Assembly: GCA_937907245.1 (NCBI GenBank)
Contig: CALCUM010000002.1
Span: 620,001-684,000 of the forward strand
DNA from: an uncultured Rhodobiaceae bacterium
GTDB taxonomy: Bacteria > Pseudomonadota > Alphaproteobacteria > RS24
Direction of reading: 5' to 3'
Length of the DNA stretch: 64,000 nt
Shown: positions 47,265 through 55,461 of the stretch, piece by piece
Numbering within the stretch: position 1 is the first letter of the stretch
How the letters are laid out: every line of letters begins with the position of its first letter
Program-made: the position numbers and the translations under genes
The notes under the pieces: model-generated
The model's input: the letters and a program-made list of their open reading frames with translations, nothing else
The model's database searches: none
What the model was told of the DNA's origin: nothing

Positions 47265-47340
47265 TCCCCGGTAGCTCAGTTGGTAGAGCAAACGGCTGTT
47301 AACCGTTCGGTCGCTGGTTCGAGTCCGGCCCGGGGAGCCA
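47265..47340 (+). tRNA. tRNA-Asn (anticodon GTT)
   Basis: 76 nt with encoded CCA. Acceptor TCCCCGG pairs with CCGGGGA; D arm AGCTCAGTTGGTAGAGC; anticodon loop CTGTTAA with GTT; T arm GGTTCGAGTCC. Its last nine bases are the start of the 34-bp repeat found again at 48027-48060. Confidence 0.97.
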
Positions 47341-47365
47341 CCTTTAGCCCAATCAAATACTCCAT
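47332..47365. repeat. Direct repeat, left copy: 3' end of tRNA-Asn plus trailer (attachment-site-like)
   Basis: 34 bp starting GGGGAGCCACC within tRNA-Asn and ending CTCCAT. 33 of 34 bases match the copy at 48027-48060. tRNA 3' ends are the favoured integration sites of tyrosine recombinases, and a duplicated 3' end is the mark left by such an insertion. Confidence 0.85.
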
Positions 47366-47554
47366 AAAAAGATCACCAAACTGGAAGCGCAATTGGAAAA
47401 ATTATTGCAGCAAGAAACAGTTTTGGAAGCGGATCTGTCAGCCCCTGCATCATTGGCAGATGAGCCCTTAGTGCAAAATATTTTGGCCGATTATGCGGCT
47501 GTCAAAAAACAAGTTGATGAGCTCGAAACAGCTTGGATTAAAGCCCAAAATTAA
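47348..47554 (+). pseudogene. Remnant of an ABC-F ATPase gene (C-terminal coiled coil only)
   Basis: An open frame with no start codon begins after TAG 47345-47347 and ends at TAA 47552. It translates as KITKLEAQLEKLLQQETVLE, then ADLSAPASLADEP and LVQNILADYAAVKKQVDELE, ending TAWIKAQN. The heptad pattern, the L-A-D-x-P insert and the terminal E-x-x-W resemble the C-terminal domain of Uup/ABC-F proteins (E-x-x-I-x-x-L-E ... W-L-E-L). The rest of the gene is absent upstream, where the tRNA and the direct repeat stand instead. Could also be a short unrelated coiled-coil gene with a lost start. Confidence 0.55.
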
Positions 47555-47694
47555 CCGCCGACAAACAAAAATAATGCAGCAATAGCAATGGCTTATAAAA
47601 TATTTGGCCGGTCGCATTTTTTTCGCTTTGAAACGGCGAATTTTGGGCGTATAGCGAAAAAAATAACATTATAATTTTCTCTTTTGAGGCCGCT

Positions 47695-47946
47695 ATGGTT
47701 GACACTGTTTTTCTTGCTCAGGCTACGTCTTTAGTCTTCGGCACTATTCTTGCTGCACCGCTGCTTGCCAGTGTTAGCAATAAAAGCCGTCATTGGGGTT
47801 TCATGGCGATGATGTTAGGCACATTGTCAGCCCTGATTGTCCATGTCGCTTTTTCTCTATGGTTGTTTGCTGGGGCGAGCGTATTTTGGTTCATCATGAG
47901 CGTGCGCGGTTGGCTAAACACGCGCGAGATTCCGCCTGCCTCCTGA
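47695..47946 (+). CDS. Small two-helix membrane protein of unknown function
   Basis: 83 residues starting at an ATG with TTGAGG upstream. Two to three hydrophobic segments are evident (LVFGTILAAPLLASV, GFMAMMLGTLSALIVHVAFSL and a short one with LFAGASVFWFIMSV), separated by a basic NKSRHW loop. No motif I recognise. It is the only plausible intact gene between the two copies of the tRNA-Asn-derived repeat, so it may be cargo of a lost element. Confidence 0.6.
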   Translation: MVDTVFLAQATSLVFGTILAAPLLASVSNKSRHWGFMAMMLGTLSALIVHVAFSLWLFAGASVFWFIMSVRGWLNTREIPPAS

Positions 47947-48026
47947 ACGCTTTTATCTCGTCTTGCTGTAAGCCGCCGGTAAGTTTGGTGCGCTGGACTA
48001 AACTGGAAACAGGAGTGGGGCTACAA

Positions 48027-48060
48027 GGGGAGCCACCTTTAGCCCAATCAAATACCCCAT
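48027..48060. repeat. Direct repeat, right copy of the tRNA-Asn 3'-end sequence
   Basis: Matches 47332-47365 with one mismatch (C at 48057 against T at 47361). It is followed within 15 bp by the terminator at 48075-48109, which probably belonged to tRNA-Asn before the insertion. Confidence 0.85.
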
Positions 48061-48074
48061 TAACACCCCCAAAC

Positions 48075-48109: not shown

Positions 48110-48229
48110 GATTTGTCTCTCTCGAAACTAATTTCAACATATTCTTGCCGCGCACAGGAAACCACCTCGCCAAATCCGCGAATTGCACCATATTAGAAGT
48201 AGTTGATTTTAAGCTTAAGGAGAGCCTGC

Positions 48230-49672
48230 GTGTCGAGTTCAAGTTCTGTTTCCCCTATCCTTGTTTGGTTTCGTCAAGACCTGCGCTTGGACGATAATCC
48301 TGCTCTCGAAGCCGCCCTGCAACTCGGGGCCCCTATTCTGGCTGTCTTTATTGAGGAAACAGATACGCAATCCCAGTCGGCGCGCGCAGCCGGAGCTATG
48401 TCGATGTGGTGGCGCGATCAATCATTGGCCAAATTGGATGCAGATTTGCGCGCGCGCTCTAGCCAATTGATTTACCGAAGAGGCAATCCTGCCAACGTAT
48501 TAACCCGCTTGCTCGACGAAACTTCCGCCCGCGGGGTTTATTGGAACCGCCAATATGAAGCGCAAGATGTCGCGCGCGATACCCACATCAAAGAAGACCT
48601 CAAACAACGCGGCCTGCTGGCAGAGAGCTTTAACGCCTCGCTGCTTTTTGAGCCTTGGGAAATTACCGCCAAATCGACTGGGGGGCCGTTTAAAGTATTT
48701 ACCCCTTATTGGCGCGCCTGCCGCGCCCGCGGTTTAGACAGCCGTTTATGGAGCGCGCCTGATCACTTTTCCAGCCCCGAGACGCAGCCCGACAGCGAGC
48801 CCCTACCGCAAGCTGGTGCCCCCCAAGGCGCTGATTTATTAGGCGCGTGGAACCCCGGAGAAGCTGGCGCGCGCGCGGCTTTAGATTTGTTTTTAACGCA
48901 AAATATTAGCGGCTATGACGAGCGCCGTAATTTACCCGCAGAGCCCGCGACCTCTCGCCTTAGCCCGCATTTGCGTTGGGGCGAAATTAGCCCGCGCCGC
49001 ATCGTTGCCGCAACTTTGGCAAAGCAAGCCTCTGGCGCCATAGAGGTCTCAGACGGAGATAAGTTTTTGGCCGAAATTGGCTGGCGCGAATTTGCTTATC
49101 AACTGATGTTCCACAATCCGCAGATTAAAGACACATGTCTGGTTGAAAAATTCGAAGCTTTTGCGTGGCGCGAGGCACCCGATGATTTGGAAGCTTGGAA
49201 ACGCGGAGAAACGGGCTACCCCATTGTCGATGCAGGTATGCGCGAATTGCGCCGCACAGGCTTTATGCATAATCGGGTGCGAATGATTACCGCAAGCTTC
49301 CTCATCAAGCATTTGCTGATCGATTGGCGGGAAGGCGAAAAATGGTTTTGGCAATGTTTGGCCGATGCAGACCCTGCCAATAATACCGCAAGCTGGCAAT
49401 GGGTGGCTGGGTGTGGCGCCGATGCCGCACCCTATTTTCGTATTTTCAATCCGATTTTGCAGGGCCCTAAGTTTGATAAAGCGGGCGTTTACACCAAAAA
49501 ATATTGCCCGGAGCTGGCGCCCCTCTCGGGAAAAACCTTGTTTGCCCCTTGGACCGCCAAATCAGACATGCTGAGCAGCGACCAAATAACACTTGGCAAG
49601 ACCTACCCGAACCCTATGGTGAACCATGAGGCAGCGCGGGCTCGGGCGCTGGATAGTTTTAAGTCCCTCTAA
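48230..49672 (+). CDS. phr: Deoxyribodipyrimidine photolyase (class I cryptochrome/photolyase family)
   Basis: Repairs UV-induced cyclobutane pyrimidine dimers using light. 480 residues from a GTG at 48230 with AAGGAG 7 nt upstream. N-terminal antenna domain starts ILVWFRQDLRLDDNPAL. The C-terminal FAD domain shows LSPHLRWGEISPR, WREFAYQLMFH, and GYPIVDAGMRELRRTGFMHNR, then WQWVAGCGADAAPYFRIFNP with the Trp and Asn residues of dimer binding. In Rhodobacter, phr homologues belong to the RpoE-ChrR singlet-oxygen response, and a ChrR-like gene lies 5 kb away, but I see no RpoE-type promoter here. Confidence 0.95.
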   Translation: MSSSSSVSPILVWFRQDLRLDDNPALEAALQLGAPILAVFIEETDTQSQSARAAGAMSMWWRDQSLAKLDADLRARSSQLIYRRGNPANVLTRLLDETSARGVYWNRQYEAQDVARDTHIKEDLKQRGLLAESFNASLLFEPWEITAKSTGGPFKVFTPYWRACRARGLDSRLWSAPDHFSSPETQPDSEPLPQAGAPQGADLLGAWNPGEAGARAALDLFLTQNISGYDERRNLPAEPATSRLSPHLRWGEISPRRIVAATLAKQASGAIEVSDGDKFLAEIGWREFAYQLMFHNPQIKDTCLVEKFEAFAWREAPDDLEAWKRGETGYPIVDAGMRELRRTGFMHNRVRMITASFLIKHLLIDWREGEKWFWQCLADADPANNTASWQWVAGCGADAAPYFRIFNPILQGPKFDKAGVYTKKYCPELAPLSGKTLFAPWTAKSDMLSSDQITLGKTYPNPMVNHEAARARALDSFKSL

Positions 49673-49760: not shown

Positions 49761-51032
49761 ATGAAAATTGCCATTATCGGCTCTGGAATATCTGGAAATG
49801 TCGCTGCCTATAAGCTGTCCCGCGACCATGATGTCACCGTATTTGAAAAGCGCGACCGCGCCGGCGGCCATAGCGCCACCAAAGACATCGACTATACGGG
49901 GAACGGCGATTGGATGAGCGTCGACACCGGCTTTATTGTTTACAATGAATTAAACTACCCGGGCCTGATTGCCTTATTTGACGAGCTAAATGTCGAGACC
50001 GAAGCCAGTGATATGAGCTTTGCGTTTTCCGCCGACCGAGGCAGTTTTGAATGGTCTGGCCAATCGCTATCGGCTGTATTTGCGCAGAAACGTAATTTAT
50101 TTAACCCTTTGTTTTGGCTCATGCTACGCGGGATTTTTAAGTTCAACAAACGCGCCGCGCGCGACCATGAAGCCGGCACTTTAGGCAAGGAAAGCCTCGG
50201 GCATTGGCTGAAACGACACCGCTTTAGTAAGGTCTTCATTCAGCGCTATTTGCTGCCGATGGGCGCCGCTATTTGGTCGACGCCAGCCGATGAGATTATG
50301 GATTTCCCCGCCCGCAGTTTTTTGCAGTTTTTCTACAATCATCGCTTAATCAATCGCGACCGTCCGCAATGGCGCACCGTTTCGGGGGGCAGTCGGGAAT
50401 ATGTCAAAAAAATCACCCAAAGCTTTGCCGATCAATTGCGCCTAAACGCGGAAGTCAGTGAAGTGCGACGCACGCCAGATGGCGTTGCTTTAATTGCCAA
50501 CGGTCATATCCAACATTTCGACGAGGTAATTTTTGCCTGTCATACCGACCAAGCCAAGGCGATTTTAAAAGACCCTACCCCCGAAGAAGCCAGCCTTTTA
50601 AGCCGCGTGCGCTATTTGCCTAATGATGTCTATTTGCATTGCGATGAGCGCTTAATGCCGAAACGCAAAATCACATGGTCGGCTTGGAATTATATGACTC
50701 AAAAAGGCGCCGACAGCAAAGTGATGACCGTAAGTTATTGGATGAACCGATTGCAAAACCTCGACCACCGTTATCCGGTTTTTGTCACCCTCAATCCGCT
50801 TACACCGCCTTCGAAGGATAAAACCTTTGGCCATTACACCTATGACCACCCCCAATTCGATGCAAGCGCCTTGCAGGCGCAAGAAGACCTGCCTAAGGTT
50901 CAAGGCAGTCATCGAGCCTGGTTTTGTGGCGCTTGGGCGGGCTATGGCTTTCACGAAGACGGTTTGCAATCGGCCTTGCGCGTGGTTGAGGCTATGGAAG
51001 CCAAGAACTCGACGAATAAGGCGGCGACCTAG
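49761..51032 (+). CDS. FAD-dependent oxidoreductase of the amine-oxidase/desaturase type, lipid-modification cluster
   Basis: 423 residues. The N-terminal dinucleotide-binding motif IIGSGISGNVAAYKL and the EKRDRAGGHSAT loop bind FAD. The protein has the layout of flavin amine oxidases and carotenoid-desaturase-like enzymes (AIWSTPADEIMDFPARSFLQ; CGAWAGYGFHEDGLQSALRV at the C-terminus, where FAD is again contacted). Next genes encode a DUF1365 protein (overlapping by one base) and a cyclopropane-synthase-family enzyme. This trio is widely conserved and is thought to modify membrane fatty acids; in Rhodobacter related genes make methylated and furan fatty acids. Exact reaction unknown. Confidence 0.88.
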   Translation: MKIAIIGSGISGNVAAYKLSRDHDVTVFEKRDRAGGHSATKDIDYTGNGDWMSVDTGFIVYNELNYPGLIALFDELNVETEASDMSFAFSADRGSFEWSGQSLSAVFAQKRNLFNPLFWLMLRGIFKFNKRAARDHEAGTLGKESLGHWLKRHRFSKVFIQRYLLPMGAAIWSTPADEIMDFPARSFLQFFYNHRLINRDRPQWRTVSGGSREYVKKITQSFADQLRLNAEVSEVRRTPDGVALIANGHIQHFDEVIFACHTDQAKAILKDPTPEEASLLSRVRYLPNDVYLHCDERLMPKRKITWSAWNYMTQKGADSKVMTVSYWMNRLQNLDHRYPVFVTLNPLTPPSKDKTFGHYTYDHPQFDASALQAQEDLPKVQGSHRAWFCGAWAGYGFHEDGLQSALRVVEAMEAKNSTNKAAT

Positions 51033-51862
51033 TGCCGAAGCCCCGCTTAAATACGGCCTCCAATGCGATGAAAGATGTGATGAAAAATAAGGTGACATCT
51101 GGGCAATCAAACGCACTTTATGTCGGCGCGGTTCGCCACGCGCGCTATCAGCCTAAAACGCACCGCTTTGGCTACCGTGTTTTTTCGGCCTATCTCAATG
51201 TCGATGAGTTGGACGCAAATCAATTGGGCTTAAAGCTTTTATCCGTCAATCGATGGAACCTATTTTCCGTGCGTGCGCGCGACCATGGCGCCCGCGACGG
51301 CACTAACTTGAGGCCTTTTCTAGACAGTTTGTTGGCCGAGGCCGGCCTCGGTTCGCCAGACGAAATTTATATTCTATGTTATCCGCGCATGTTCGGTTTC
51401 GCCTTCAATCCCCTGACGGTTTATTATTGCTTCGAGGGCGAGCAGATAAGCGCAATGATTTACGAAGTCCGCAATACATTTGGCGATGACCATACCTATG
51501 TGGTGCCGCTCAAAGGGCAATCACGCGATACGCTGACCCTGCATTGCCGCGATAAACGCCTGCATGTCTCGCCTTTTATGGAGATGGAGGCGCGCTATCA
51601 TTTTTCTACCGCCGCGCCCAACGATAGCCTGCGGATGGTTATTCGCGAAACGCAAGACGATAAGCCCCTATTGGTCGCCAGTTTCCATGGTCAAAAACAG
51701 CCCCTCACCGATGGCGCGTTGATACGAGCCTTTTTGACGCATCCCTTGATGACCGTGAAGGTTGTGGTTGCAATCCACTATGAAGCTGCGAAGATATTTT
51801 TCAAAGGCGTTCCCTTTATTAAGCGCCCTGAGCCACCTGAAAGCCGACATAGTTCGTCTTAG
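51032..51862 (+). CDS. DUF1365-family protein
   Basis: 276 residues from the GTG at 51032, whose first base is the last of the previous stop; AAGGCGG upstream supports it, with an ATG at 51068 as alternative. The DUF1365 core is visible: HRFGYRVFSAYLNVDEL, CYPRMFGFAFNPLTVYYCF and YEVRNTFGDDHTYVV. Function is not established; the family nearly always lies beside a flavin oxidoreductase and a cyclopropane-synthase-family methyltransferase, so a role in lipid modification is the best inference. The stop codon lies in a 13-bp tandem duplication. Confidence 0.92.
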   Translation: MPKPRLNTASNAMKDVMKNKVTSGQSNALYVGAVRHARYQPKTHRFGYRVFSAYLNVDELDANQLGLKLLSVNRWNLFSVRARDHGARDGTNLRPFLDSLLAEAGLGSPDEIYILCYPRMFGFAFNPLTVYYCFEGEQISAMIYEVRNTFGDDHTYVVPLKGQSRDTLTLHCRDKRLHVSPFMEMEARYHFSTAAPNDSLRMVIRETQDDKPLLVASFHGQKQPLTDGALIRAFLTHPLMTVKVVVAIHYEAAKIFFKGVPFIKRPEPPESRHSSS

Positions 51863-51884: not shown

Positions 51885-51902
51885 TATTTGGCAGGAGTAA
51901 GA

Positions 51903-53129
51903 ATGAGTAACTCGAAACCGGCAGATAGCGCTGCTGCCCTAGAAAAGCAGCCTCGCCTTCCCGCAGCCGTTAAAATCATGTCGTTGATTTTAAAACATCT
52001 AGCCGAAGGAGAATTGCACCTGGAGTTACCGGATGGCCGACGCTTAAAATTTGGAACCGCGTCGATAGATGGGCCCGCCGTTTTGGAAGTTCACGACATG
52101 AAGCTGTTTCGGCGCCTTATGCGCAATGGATCTATGGGATTTGCCGAAAGCTATATGGAAGGCGAATGGAGCACTCCCGACCTGAGCAAGCTACTTATAC
52201 TGTTAAACAAAAATATGAGTTACCTTGCACAAGCCATTGATAAAAATAAGTTTACTAATTTTATTAATCGGATTATTCATCGCCTGAGACCCAACACTCG
52301 GGAAGGCTCTAAGCGCAATATTCATGCTCATTATGATCTCGGCAACGCGTTTTATAACCTCTGGCTAGACACCACGATGACCTATTCCTCGGCACTATTC
52401 CGAGATAGCCAACAAAGCCTTGCCGACGCGCAAAACGAGAAGTATCGCGCCTTGGCAGAGAGTGCCAATATTGGCCCCAATGACCATGTTTTAGAGATTG
52501 GTTGCGGCTGGGGTGGGTTTGCAGCCTTTGCGGCCAGCGAGATTGGCTGCAAAGTCACGGGCATTACCATCTCGAAAGAACAATTGGCCTATGCTGAAAA
52601 ACGCATTGAAGAGGCTGGTTTGACTGACAAAGTGGACTTTCAATTCCGCGATTATCGCGATGTTACCGAACCATATGACCGCATTGTCTCCATCGAGATG
52701 TTTGAAGCCGTGGGCGAGCGCTATTGGCCAACCTATTTCGAGCAAGTGAAACAGCTTTTGAAGCCTGGCGGCAAGGCAGGCTTGCAAATCATAACCATTA
52801 CCAACGAGCGATTTGATAGCTACCGCAAGAAAGCGGACTTTATTCAGCGCTATATTTTCCCGGGCGGCATGTTGCCCTCACCCGAGAAATTGGATGTAGA
52901 ATTCGACAAAGCGGGCCTGAAACTGGTGCATCGTGAGGATTTCGCGCAAGACTACGCGCGCACTTTGGCCGAATGGCACACGAAGTTCCTTGAGGTCTGG
53001 CCCGAAATCGAGGCGCTTGGCTTCGATAAGCGATTTAAGCAAATGTGGCGCTACTATCTATCCTATTGTGAGGCGGGTTTTGATACGCGGTCCATCGATG
53101 TGTCGCATTTCACCCTAGATCACGCCTAG
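51903..53129 (+). CDS. Cyclopropane-fatty-acid-synthase-family methyltransferase, atypical active site
   Basis: 408 residues from the ATG at 51903 with AGGAG upstream. SAM motif I is VLEIGCGWGGFA (197-208). Compared with E. coli Cfa, the active-site Cys139 falls on Ser163 (MTYSSALF) and His266 on Gln295 (GLQIIT), while the glutamate (Glu268 in EMFEAVG) and tyrosine (Tyr351) are kept. Enzymes of this subgroup, such as UfaM of Rhodobacter and BfaB/TmsB of actinobacteria, add a methyl or methylene group to unsaturated acyl chains instead of forming a cyclopropane. The neighbouring flavin oxidoreductase and DUF1365 fit that. Substrate is phospholipid acyl chains by family. Confidence 0.9.
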   Translation: MSNSKPADSAAALEKQPRLPAAVKIMSLILKHLAEGELHLELPDGRRLKFGTASIDGPAVLEVHDMKLFRRLMRNGSMGFAESYMEGEWSTPDLSKLLILLNKNMSYLAQAIDKNKFTNFINRIIHRLRPNTREGSKRNIHAHYDLGNAFYNLWLDTTMTYSSALFRDSQQSLADAQNEKYRALAESANIGPNDHVLEIGCGWGGFAAFAASEIGCKVTGITISKEQLAYAEKRIEEAGLTDKVDFQFRDYRDVTEPYDRIVSIEMFEAVGERYWPTYFEQVKQLLKPGGKAGLQIITITNERFDSYRKKADFIQRYIFPGGMLPSPEKLDVEFDKAGLKLVHREDFAQDYARTLAEWHTKFLEVWPEIEALGFDKRFKQMWRYYLSYCEAGFDTRSIDVSHFTLDHA

Positions 53130-53153: not shown

Positions 53154-53921
53154 CTATTTATTGGTAGACGACCCCACCAGCTTTACATAGAGCCCACGCG
53201 GCAGCAGATTGATGGCGCGCAAGAGATAGCTAAACCGCTTAGGAAACGAGATATGCGTCTTGCCTTTAGCCAATCCGTTGGCGATACGGCGCGCGGCATC
53301 TTCAGCCTCGATAATAAAAGGCATGGGAAATGGGTTCACATCCGTTGCTGGCGTTTTAACAAAGCCGGGCGCCACCATGGACACATGCACGCCCGAGGCT
53401 TTTAAATCCATCGCCATCGACTCGCCCAAGTTAAACAAAGCCGCTTTTGAGGCGCCGTAAGCGGCCGAGGTTGGCAAGCCGCCGTATCCTGCCACCGAAG
53501 ACACCAGCGAAATATGACCCTGCCCGCGCGAAACCATTAAAGGCATAAGTGCTGCCAGCCCGTTTACCGTGCCAGTTAAATTAACCTCAAAGGTGCGATC
53601 GAATATCTCGGCATCAAAATCTGGAAACGCCGTTGGTAAATAAATCCCGGCGTTCATTATCCCCAAGGCTATCGGCCCCAGTTTTTTCTCAATCTTTGTT
53701 GCGGTGGCTGCCATGGCCTCGCGGTCGGTCACATCGCAAACAAAGGCGGTGATATTATCTTGGCCCTTCGCAATCTTCGCCAAATCGGCTTTGCGTCGAG
53801 CCGAGATAGCCACCTGCCAGCCTCTTGAGGCCAATTCTAGCGCTAAAGCAGCACCAATGCCCGACGATGCGCCCGTAATCCAAGCGCACCCATCTTGAGG
53901 GGTTACAATTTTGAGGCTCAT
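53154..53921 (-). CDS. Short-chain dehydrogenase/reductase
   Basis: 255 residues. NAD(P) motif TGASSGIGAALALELASRG (17-35) and active-site Ser, Tyr and Lys (LVSSVAGYGGLPTSAAYGASKAAL, with YGASK) are intact. The C-terminus carries a hydrophobic, basic tail (RFSYLLRAINLLPRGLYVKL) typical of SDRs that sit on membranes and act on lipids. It is the last gene of a minus-strand trio with DUF6134-like and ChrR-like genes, facing the methyltransferase cluster. Substrate unknown. Confidence 0.92.
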   Translation of the reverse strand: MSLKIVTPQDGCAWITGASSGIGAALALELASRGWQVAISARRKADLAKIAKGQDNITAFVCDVTDREAMAATATKIEKKLGPIALGIMNAGIYLPTAFPDFDAEIFDRTFEVNLTGTVNGLAALMPLMVSRGQGHISLVSSVAGYGGLPTSAAYGASKAALFNLGESMAMDLKASGVHVSMVAPGFVKTPATDVNPFPMPFIIEAEDAARRIANGLAKGKTHISFPKRFSYLLRAINLLPRGLYVKLVGSSTNK

Positions 53922-53960: not shown

Positions 53961-54677
53961 TTAGGGGCGCGCCCATTCATTGCGCGGTGGTAAAGCGCTT
54001 ATGTCCACCGGGTTAATTACCAATACGTTGCCACCGCGTGAAAATTCAGTGCGTAGCCATTGGCCCGCATCTGAGTACCAAATATCAATCGCCAATTTGC
54101 CTAAAAGCTGAAACCGCGTGGCTTCTAGGCTGCCCGTCGGCACAACCAGCGTTTCACGGCCTATTTCTCTCACTTCCGCCTCCAGCACGCGCGCGTCTTG
54201 GGTGGACACAAAGCGGGTGGCGTGAATGAAATTTGGGTTGAAATACGTCGTCGGCATAATCGGATCTTCAATGGGCCCCTCATATTTGGTGCCACTGCCA
54301 ACCAAAGCAGAGCCTTGGCGTTGTAAATTCGCAAACTCAGGGTCGCCATTGTTATCGGTTTTTGAGACGATGGATTGAACCCTGCCATCACGCCAGATCT
54401 CGCGGTTCTGATGCACATAGCGGAACAAGGTTATGGGGCCGAATTTAAAATTAATTTCAATGTGGACATCAACCACCAGATTGCCAGCCTCGTCGCGGCT
54501 GAAGTCAAATACTTGAAAGCCATGCCGCTTGCCCTTGCGGGTCACTTCATAGGCCAATTGGTTATTTTCCGGGATGCCGCCCAGCCAATTTGTCGATGTC
54601 TGATTTCCAAAAGCCATGGCTGGCACTTGTAAGGACACCAGCAAAACCAACCCTAGAACAAACGCTCTAGCGGACAA
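53961..54677 (-). CDS. Exported protein, DUF6134-like
   Basis: About 238 residues from a TTG at 54677, which overlaps the ChrR-like stop by 11 bp and gives a tidy signal peptide (SARAFVLGLVLLVSLQVPAMA). ATGs further upstream (54728, 54758) lie inside the ChrR-like gene and would lengthen it. The mature part is a beta-rich periplasmic domain with VTRKGKRHGFQVFDFSRDE and LFRYVHQNREIWRDGRV, which I associate with the DUF6134 group often found beside cfa-like genes. Function unknown; may bind or sense lipids in the envelope. Confidence 0.68.
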   Translation of the reverse strand: MSARAFVLGLVLLVSLQVPAMAFGNQTSTNWLGGIPENNQLAYEVTRKGKRHGFQVFDFSRDEAGNLVVDVHIEINFKFGPITLFRYVHQNREIWRDGRVQSIVSKTDNNGDPEFANLQRQGSALVGSGTKYEGPIEDPIMPTTYFNPNFIHATRFVSTQDARVLEAEVREIGRETLVVPTGSLEATRFQLLGKLAIDIWYSDAGQWLRTEFSRGGNVLVINPVDISALPPRNEWARP

Positions 54678-55326
54678 AAAAGTCTCGCGCCATACGGCCA
54701 ATGGTATCGGTGAAGCGCAAGGCGCCATCGGTAACGGCCAAGCAGATGCAGTCTTCATCGCCTTCGGCCCTAGGGCGATGTTGCACATCATGGTCAGCCA
54801 CGGCTAATTCGCCACGCTGATACACACGCTCGCCATCGCGAAACGCGCCGCGCAAGACCAAAGTCGCTTCCATACCATTGTGGGTATGGCGCGGGGCCGC
54901 TTTGCCGGGTTTGATTTTCAATAGTTTTACAGTCTCGCCCGTATCGCCAATCGGCAATTCCATGTGGCGCACACCCGGATAGGCAAAGCGCCAGCGCTCT
55001 TGCTCAATCGGTTTGGTTAGAAAGGCGCGCAAAGGGGCTGGCAAATCAGCATTCAGCTGGTTTGTTTCGATTGAAACCTCTGGTGTTTCTGGCTCATCCA
55101 AGCGCGCCATTAACTGCTCAAGCGCATCCTCATTCATCGAGGCCGTCTCGGCTTCTTCCAGCAAAGCGCCGTTAATTTTCTCCAGCGTCGCTACATCTTG
55201 GCGGGCTTCTGGCGACAACGTAAGATAGCTGGCCATCAATACGGACATGCCATGCCCCAGTTCGCCACTTACATATTGAGCCGTGAGGGCATCTAGGCCC
55301 GAGGGAACTTCCGTTTGTGCTATCAA
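54667..55326 (-). CDS. ChrR-like cupin protein with a degenerate anti-sigma domain
   Basis: 219 residues. The fold matches R. sphaeroides ChrR, the zinc anti-sigma factor of RpoE in the singlet-oxygen response. In ChrR the N-terminal domain needs His6, His31, Cys35 and Cys38; here those positions are non-His/Cys, with Tyr34, Ser38 and Ala41 for the last three (MASYLTLSPEAR). The C-terminal cupin keeps its ligands: His147, His149, Glu153 (RHTHNGMEATLVL) and His183. No sigma-factor gene is adjacent. It may no longer bind a sigma factor and act instead as a cupin sensor or enzyme. Divergent from cysK across a palindrome-bearing gap. Confidence 0.83.
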   Translation of the reverse strand: MIAQTEVPSGLDALTAQYVSGELGHGMSVLMASYLTLSPEARQDVATLEKINGALLEEAETASMNEDALEQLMARLDEPETPEVSIETNQLNADLPAPLRAFLTKPIEQERWRFAYPGVRHMELPIGDTGETVKLLKIKPGKAAPRHTHNGMEATLVLRGAFRDGERVYQRGELAVADHDVQHRPRAEGDEDCICLAVTDGALRFTDTIGRMARDFFVR

Positions 55327-55364: not shown

Positions 55365-55379
55365 CTATATACGATATAG
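55365..55379. promoter_or_regulatory. Palindrome in the ChrR-like/cysK divergent gap
   Basis: CTATAT and ATATAG are perfect inverted arms around ACG, 39 bp upstream of the ChrR-like start and 83 bp upstream of cysK. A/T-rich, so it may be an operator or part of a promoter. Confidence 0.3.
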
Positions 55380-55461
55380 ATCATCGTTTGGATTAGACCA
55401 ATAAGTTTTTCGTCTAAGCCCTCTCACCAAGTGCTGTCGGCGTTACGTTAAGGAGATTTCA

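Follow-up and report, generated by a model that had tools for sequence, protein, structure and literature searches.

A cyclopropane-synthase-family gene beside ufaD and ufaO in a Rhodobiaceae genome is a probable ufaM of the furan-fatty-acid pathway

The cyclopropane-synthase-family (CMAS/Cfa) gene located in the window, that is, the whole stretch of 64,000 nucleotides from an uncultured Rhodobiaceae bacterium analyzed here, very probably encodes UfaM, the first enzyme of furan-fatty-acid synthesis, within a photolyase-ufaD-ufaO-ufaM run (Table 1). The three-gene ufa set is known from light-exposed bacteria, in which it converts fatty acids of the membrane to furan fatty acids with a protective role. 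This pathway is an already known system and the gene is an ordinary member of it; the unusual element is the neighboring regulator. The protein family, the residue changes, the clade, the gene order and the promoter conserved in relatives were established directly in this analysis. The furan-fatty-acid pathway is thereby located in an alphaproteobacterial family with small genomes and a rhodopsin, and the presence of a photolyase gene beside the ufa genes fits a role in light stress.

Table 1. Features of the ufa locus and its surroundings (positions in the window).
Feature	Position	Strand	Evidence or remark
Upstream region of the photolyase-ufaDOM run	48171..48229	+	ECF11-like ATCC-N16-CGTA in relatives; degenerate AATCC in the window
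DNA photolyase; opens the same-strand run in the window's genome family	48203..49672	+	GTG 48230 is the likely start
ufaD, FAD/NAD-binding oxidoreductase (Amino_oxidase/NAD_binding_8); putative fatty-acyl desaturase by orthology	49761..51032	+	Pfam, Cereibacter comparison
ufaO, DUF1365 protein	51032..51862	+	PF07103, 256 bits
ufaM, SAM-dependent fatty-acyl methylase, CMAS/Cfa family	51903..53129	+	ORF, Pfam, alignment, tree
SDR oxidoreductase, counterpart of the RSP1087-type SDR	53154..53921	-	Pfam, Cereibacter comparison
DUF6134 protein	53961..54791	-	Because of an ORF overlap with chrR, the true start is probably further downstream
ChrR-like cupin anti-sigma homologue	54667..55326	-	Cupin HHEH kept; anti-sigma-domain HCC changed to YSA
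ECF11-like promoter TAATCC-N16-CGTAT	55369..55395	-	69 bases before chrR, kept in relatives

The open reading frame of ufaM (51888-53129, forward strand) opens with TTG, and the ATG at 51903 was preferred as the start because AGGAG lies directly 5' of it. The coordinates 51903-53129, given previously by a reading made from the sequence alone (the sequence-only reading), were therefore correct. Residue numbers counted from this ATG are five below those of the TTG-opened frame. The encoded methyltransferase is full-length, belongs to the CMAS/Cfa family (PF02353, 294 bits) and is the sole strong match to this family in a whole-genome search, in which no second full CMAS gene was found. Its AlphaFold model was of low quality over the N-terminal half (mean pLDDT 68), and the top solved-structure match was E. 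coli Cfa (PDB 6bqc, E 2e-56), with which it shares the family, the SAM site and the equivalents of Glu239, Ile268 and Tyr317. The full length of the protein, this match and the retained site residues would also suit a cyclopropane synthase of the ordinary kind that had lost Cys and His by drift and still made cyclopropane chains. However, both NCBIfam cyclopropane-synthase models were missed, with scores of 285 bits for PRK11705 (cut-off 400) and 287 bits for CPFASynBruc (cut-off 600).

In Cfa, a bound bicarbonate (Glu239, His266, Tyr317) takes a proton from the incoming methyl group, and mutations of its ligands lower the activity (PMC11387697); since these mutants are described as reduced and not stated to be nil, this work also leaves some room for a drifted cyclopropane synthase. 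The alignment of the window protein with MG1655 Cfa (MAFFT) matched Cys139 to Ser168 (Ser163 from the ATG) and His266 to Gln300 (Gln295 from the ATG), and the remaining residues were kept, Glu239 as Glu273 (Glu268 from the ATG), Ile268 as Ile302 and Tyr317 as Tyr356 (Tyr351 from the ATG). The bicarbonate site Cys139/Glu239/His266/Tyr317 is thus incomplete, with Glu and Tyr present and Cys and His replaced. The sequence-only reading had given the same correspondence (Ser163 and Gln295, with Glu and Tyr kept), and the alignment agreed with it. Nevertheless, although the residues are real, they are no oddity of this gene, being common to its UfaM-type relatives.

In a first set of such relatives, taken from related genomes, Gln was present in all 26 proteins and Ser in 25 (Ala in the remaining one); a further set of 30, made up of 23 class-wide loci and seven Rhodobacterales, gave Gln in 30/30, Ser in 27/30 and Ala in 3/30. 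UfaM-scoring homologues were widespread in the class. Cereibacter UfaM was included among the Ser/Gln relatives from UfaD/UfaO loci, and the same pair was observed in the UfaM-type proteins of Azospirillum, Caballeronia, Acinetobacter, Pseudoalteromonas and Rhodococcus, that of Photobacterium being Cys/Gln. Gln was hence invariant, and Ser nearly so, across UfaM-type proteins of alpha-, beta- and gamma-proteobacteria and Rhodococcus. Ser is not essential, since four of the proteins examined carried Ala and one carried Cys at its position. Outside the UfaM group, Cys and His were found in 13 of the 14 homologues, E. coli Cfa among them, the exception being a divergent paralogue (L066). As the substitutions are fixed in the clade, they are not due to chance, and their conservation across phyla is unlike drift. 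The Ser/Gln pair is the ordinary UfaM signature and not a peculiarity of the window gene. With the conserved Gln and the accompanying Ser, a sequence test is available by which UfaM can be distinguished among the many genes of the Cfa family that carry a cyclopropane-synthase annotation.

The phylogeny supported this assignment. In a maximum-likelihood tree of 53 proteins (IQ-TREE), the window protein fell inside a 37-member clade (support 100/99) together with Cereibacter UfaM, to which it is 47% identical. Members of this clade were the only Cfa-family protein of each of Cereibacter johrii, C. azotoformans and C. ovatus as well as methylases from UfaD-UfaO operons of other phyla; E. coli Cfa and the proteins with Cys/His lay outside it. 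The paralogue L066 was also inside the clade, on a very long branch, and its placement is unsure. As R. sphaeroides 2.4.1 was absent from the genome set, its tested enzyme is represented here by those of the Cereibacter sister species; the identity of their ChrR proteins to R. sphaeroides ChrR was 95% in C. johrii, 89% in C. azotoformans and 78% in C. ovatus. The sequence-only reading had proposed such a tree as a check, and the protein was found not in the cyclopropane-synthase clade but in that of UfaM. This separation from Cfa, in addition to the missed model cut-offs and the conservation across phyla of Ser and Gln at Cys139 and His266, makes a drifted cyclopropane synthase a very unlikely explanation. 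With the known UfaM proteins (RSP2144 of R. sphaeroides, RPA2569 of R. palustris and YLGW01_00254 of Halomonas) the window protein shares the clade of the R. sphaeroides sister-species orthologue and the Ser/Gln pair.

The gene neighborhood pointed in the same direction. In the published pathway, UfaM converts cis-vaccenate to 11Me-12t-18:1 by methylation, UfaD (a FAD-type protein, RSP1091) desaturates this product to 11Me-10t,12t-18:2, and the furan is formed by UfaO (DUF1365, RSP1090), its oxygen coming from O2 (Lemke et al., 2020; PMC7380195). The R. palustris genes RPA2571-2570-2569, arranged as ufaD-ufaO-ufaM, are necessary and sufficient (PMC7380195), and Halomonas UfaM expressed in E. 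coli yields 11-methyl-octadec-12-enoate (PMC12089945). In the window, UfaD and UfaO orthologues are encoded together with ufaM, and the gene order is that of R. palustris. When compared with the proteins encoded beside rpoE-chrR in C. johrii, the window UfaD was 42% identical over 432 aa and UfaO showed a low identity of 31%. The start of ufaO is uncertain, as residues 1-23 of the ORF have low model confidence and precede the Pfam match. The photolyase-UfaD-UfaO-UfaM order was found in those relatives of the same family whose contigs span the locus, and UfaD-DUF1365-Cfa operons were also present in Azospirillum (adjoining RpoE-ChrR), Caballeronia, Acinetobacter and Rhodococcus. Unlike the known UfaM loci, the ufa genes of the window follow a photolyase gene and lie near a chrR-like gene, not beside rpoE. 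The RSP1087-type SDR, whose counterpart follows ufaM, is dispensable for furan synthesis in R. sphaeroides (PMC7380195).

The proximity of a Cfa-family methylase gene and a FAD enzyme gene is also characteristic of the TmsB/BfaB systems (with TmsA/BfaA), compared here by their published description, in which 10-methyl saturated chains are made with the neighboring flavoprotein as reductase. The sequence-only reading had drawn this comparison, which does not fit: the tms genes were chosen for a conserved Cfa bicarbonate site (PMC7791843), and that site is lost in the window protein. Moreover, the flavoprotein of the window is of the Amino_oxidase/NAD_binding_8 type and an orthologue of UfaD, and a DUF1365 gene stands between the flavoprotein and methylase genes. 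An enzyme of the TmsB/BfaB type is hence extremely improbable. The same low probability was given to a methylase like FufM, which adds a second methyl group onto an already formed furan chain and likewise belongs to the Cfa-family relatives, with an identity of about 26% to UfaM (PMC7380195). However, the window gene is the sole full CMAS gene of its genome, so that the first methyl would have no source, and its product groups with UfaM, at the 47% identity to the Cereibacter protein given above. The broader proposal of the sequence-only reading, that the locus makes C-methylated or furan-type chains and not cyclopropanes, was largely right, considering the UfaM clade and the UfaD and UfaO orthologues in R. 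palustris order.

The following scheme is proposed for the UfaM pathway in this organism, the three Ufa reactions being taken over by analogy from the published work on orthologues. UfaM would methylate C11 of phospholipid-bound cis-vaccenoyl chains, with SAM as the donor. In Cfa, the bicarbonate base, in a site lined by Cys139/Glu239/His266/Tyr317, deprotonates the new methyl and the cyclopropane closes. With Ser and Gln in place of Cys and His, UfaM would probably not hold the bicarbonate base at the site. As bicarbonate would then not be placed for the methyl proton, the carbocation would lose a proton from the neighboring chain carbon; the methyl would stay and the double bond would move, giving 11-methyl-12-trans-18:1. 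UfaD would convert this chain to the 10,12-diene, and UfaO would insert oxygen from O2 into the diene, yielding a mono-methyl furan chain. The Ser/Gln change may thus be the cause of the different proton loss, which fits the published UfaM product, and it offers a testable idea of why one methyl transfer ends in a methyl-alkene and not in a cyclopropane. No FufM is expected in a genome lacking a second full CMAS gene, and a mono-methyl furan is therefore predicted. The most likely product, deduced from the sequences, would be a mono-methyl furan fatty acid formed via 11-methyl-octadec-12-enoate, and neither a cyclopropane nor a TmsB-type 10-methyl chain. We infer that the organism of the window produces such furans.

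The regulation of the locus was also analyzed. The promoter layout ATCC-N16-CGTA was read from the rpoE promoters of Cereibacter and of the outgroup genome G025, TGATCC-N16-CGTA preceding rpoE in both C. johrii and G025. This layout was found before the photolyase-ufaDOM run in 12 of 16 relatives (0.009 expected per stretch); in front of the window's photolyase gene only a degenerate AATCC remains of it, and the chrR-like gene of the window has a clean copy 69 bases upstream (Table 1). Earlier ECF11 patterns (TGATCC followed by TAAGA at 17-19, and a looser TGATC) gave almost no matches. A whole-genome scan with ATCC-N16-CGTA returned 19 matches vs 16 for the reversed control; since there was no excess, the scan does not define a regulon. 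The window's genome encodes elsewhere an RpoE orthologue (L080; G000:C3:854335-855087), whose top PDB match was R. sphaeroides RpoE, and two RpoH-like sigma factors.

The ChrR-like protein was the only full ChrR homologue found in the window's genome, and the chrR gene was also present in near relatives. In the R. sphaeroides protein, H31, C35 and C38 of the anti-sigma domain and the HHEH of the cupin are zinc ligands. The cupin residues H141, H143, E147 and H177 are kept, whereas Y, S and A occupy the three anti-sigma-domain positions. This loss was observed in 17/17 copies of the window's family (Tyr or Phe, Ser or Glu, and Ala, respectively), and HCC was retained in 69/69 others. Furthermore, rpoE adjoins chrR in outgroup genomes (e.g., G025, G027, G028 and G033, by coordinates) and is unlinked from it in the window's genome. 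The locus therefore resembles the RpoE (ECF11)-ChrR singlet-oxygen response of R. sphaeroides in the RpoE orthologue, the ChrR cupin zinc site, the promoter layout and the furan-fatty-acid genes near chrR, and differs from it in the unlinked rpoE and the lost anti-sigma-domain ligands. A tentative explanation, which we doubt somewhat more than we believe, is that ECF11 still drives the ufa genes of this family while ChrR has been rebuilt, being split from rpoE, with a zinc-free anti-sigma domain and only the cupin metal site intact. If this were true, ChrR would bind the sigma factor without zinc, or its role would be limited to that of a cupin sensor or enzyme, and the wiring of singlet-oxygen sensing would differ from that in Rhodobacter.

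Additionally, the model of UfaO was good (pLDDT 84.5) and showed a beta-barrel. Its best structural matches were nitrobindin beta-barrels (Z 8.2, rmsd 3.8, 136 aligned), a Z near 8 being the stated background, and Foldseek returned no match below 0.001. No heme or cofactor is claimed because of this empty Foldseek search and the background-level Z; the nitrobindin-like barrel of the model may give a weak lead on how this O2-using enzyme works.

Caballeronia and Acinetobacter have in their UfaDOM loci a second methylase gene of the Cfa family, only distantly related, which adjoins a DUF1295 gene and lies near one for a lipocalin (L177 1115-2218 and L179 6888-7937, respectively). In the window, a 37-base direct repeat, which starts within the 3' end of tRNA-Asn, was found at 47332-47368 and 48027-48063 (47332-48063 overall), and the approximately 695 bases that it brackets are missing in a near relative (L036). 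The bracketed stretch looks like a small element, or the remnant of one, inserted at tRNA-Asn between the tRNA and the photolyase gene. Finally, a rhodopsin gene was detected elsewhere in the window's genome (G000:C2:258606-259253, reverse strand; PF01036, 167 bits), which fits a light-exposed life.
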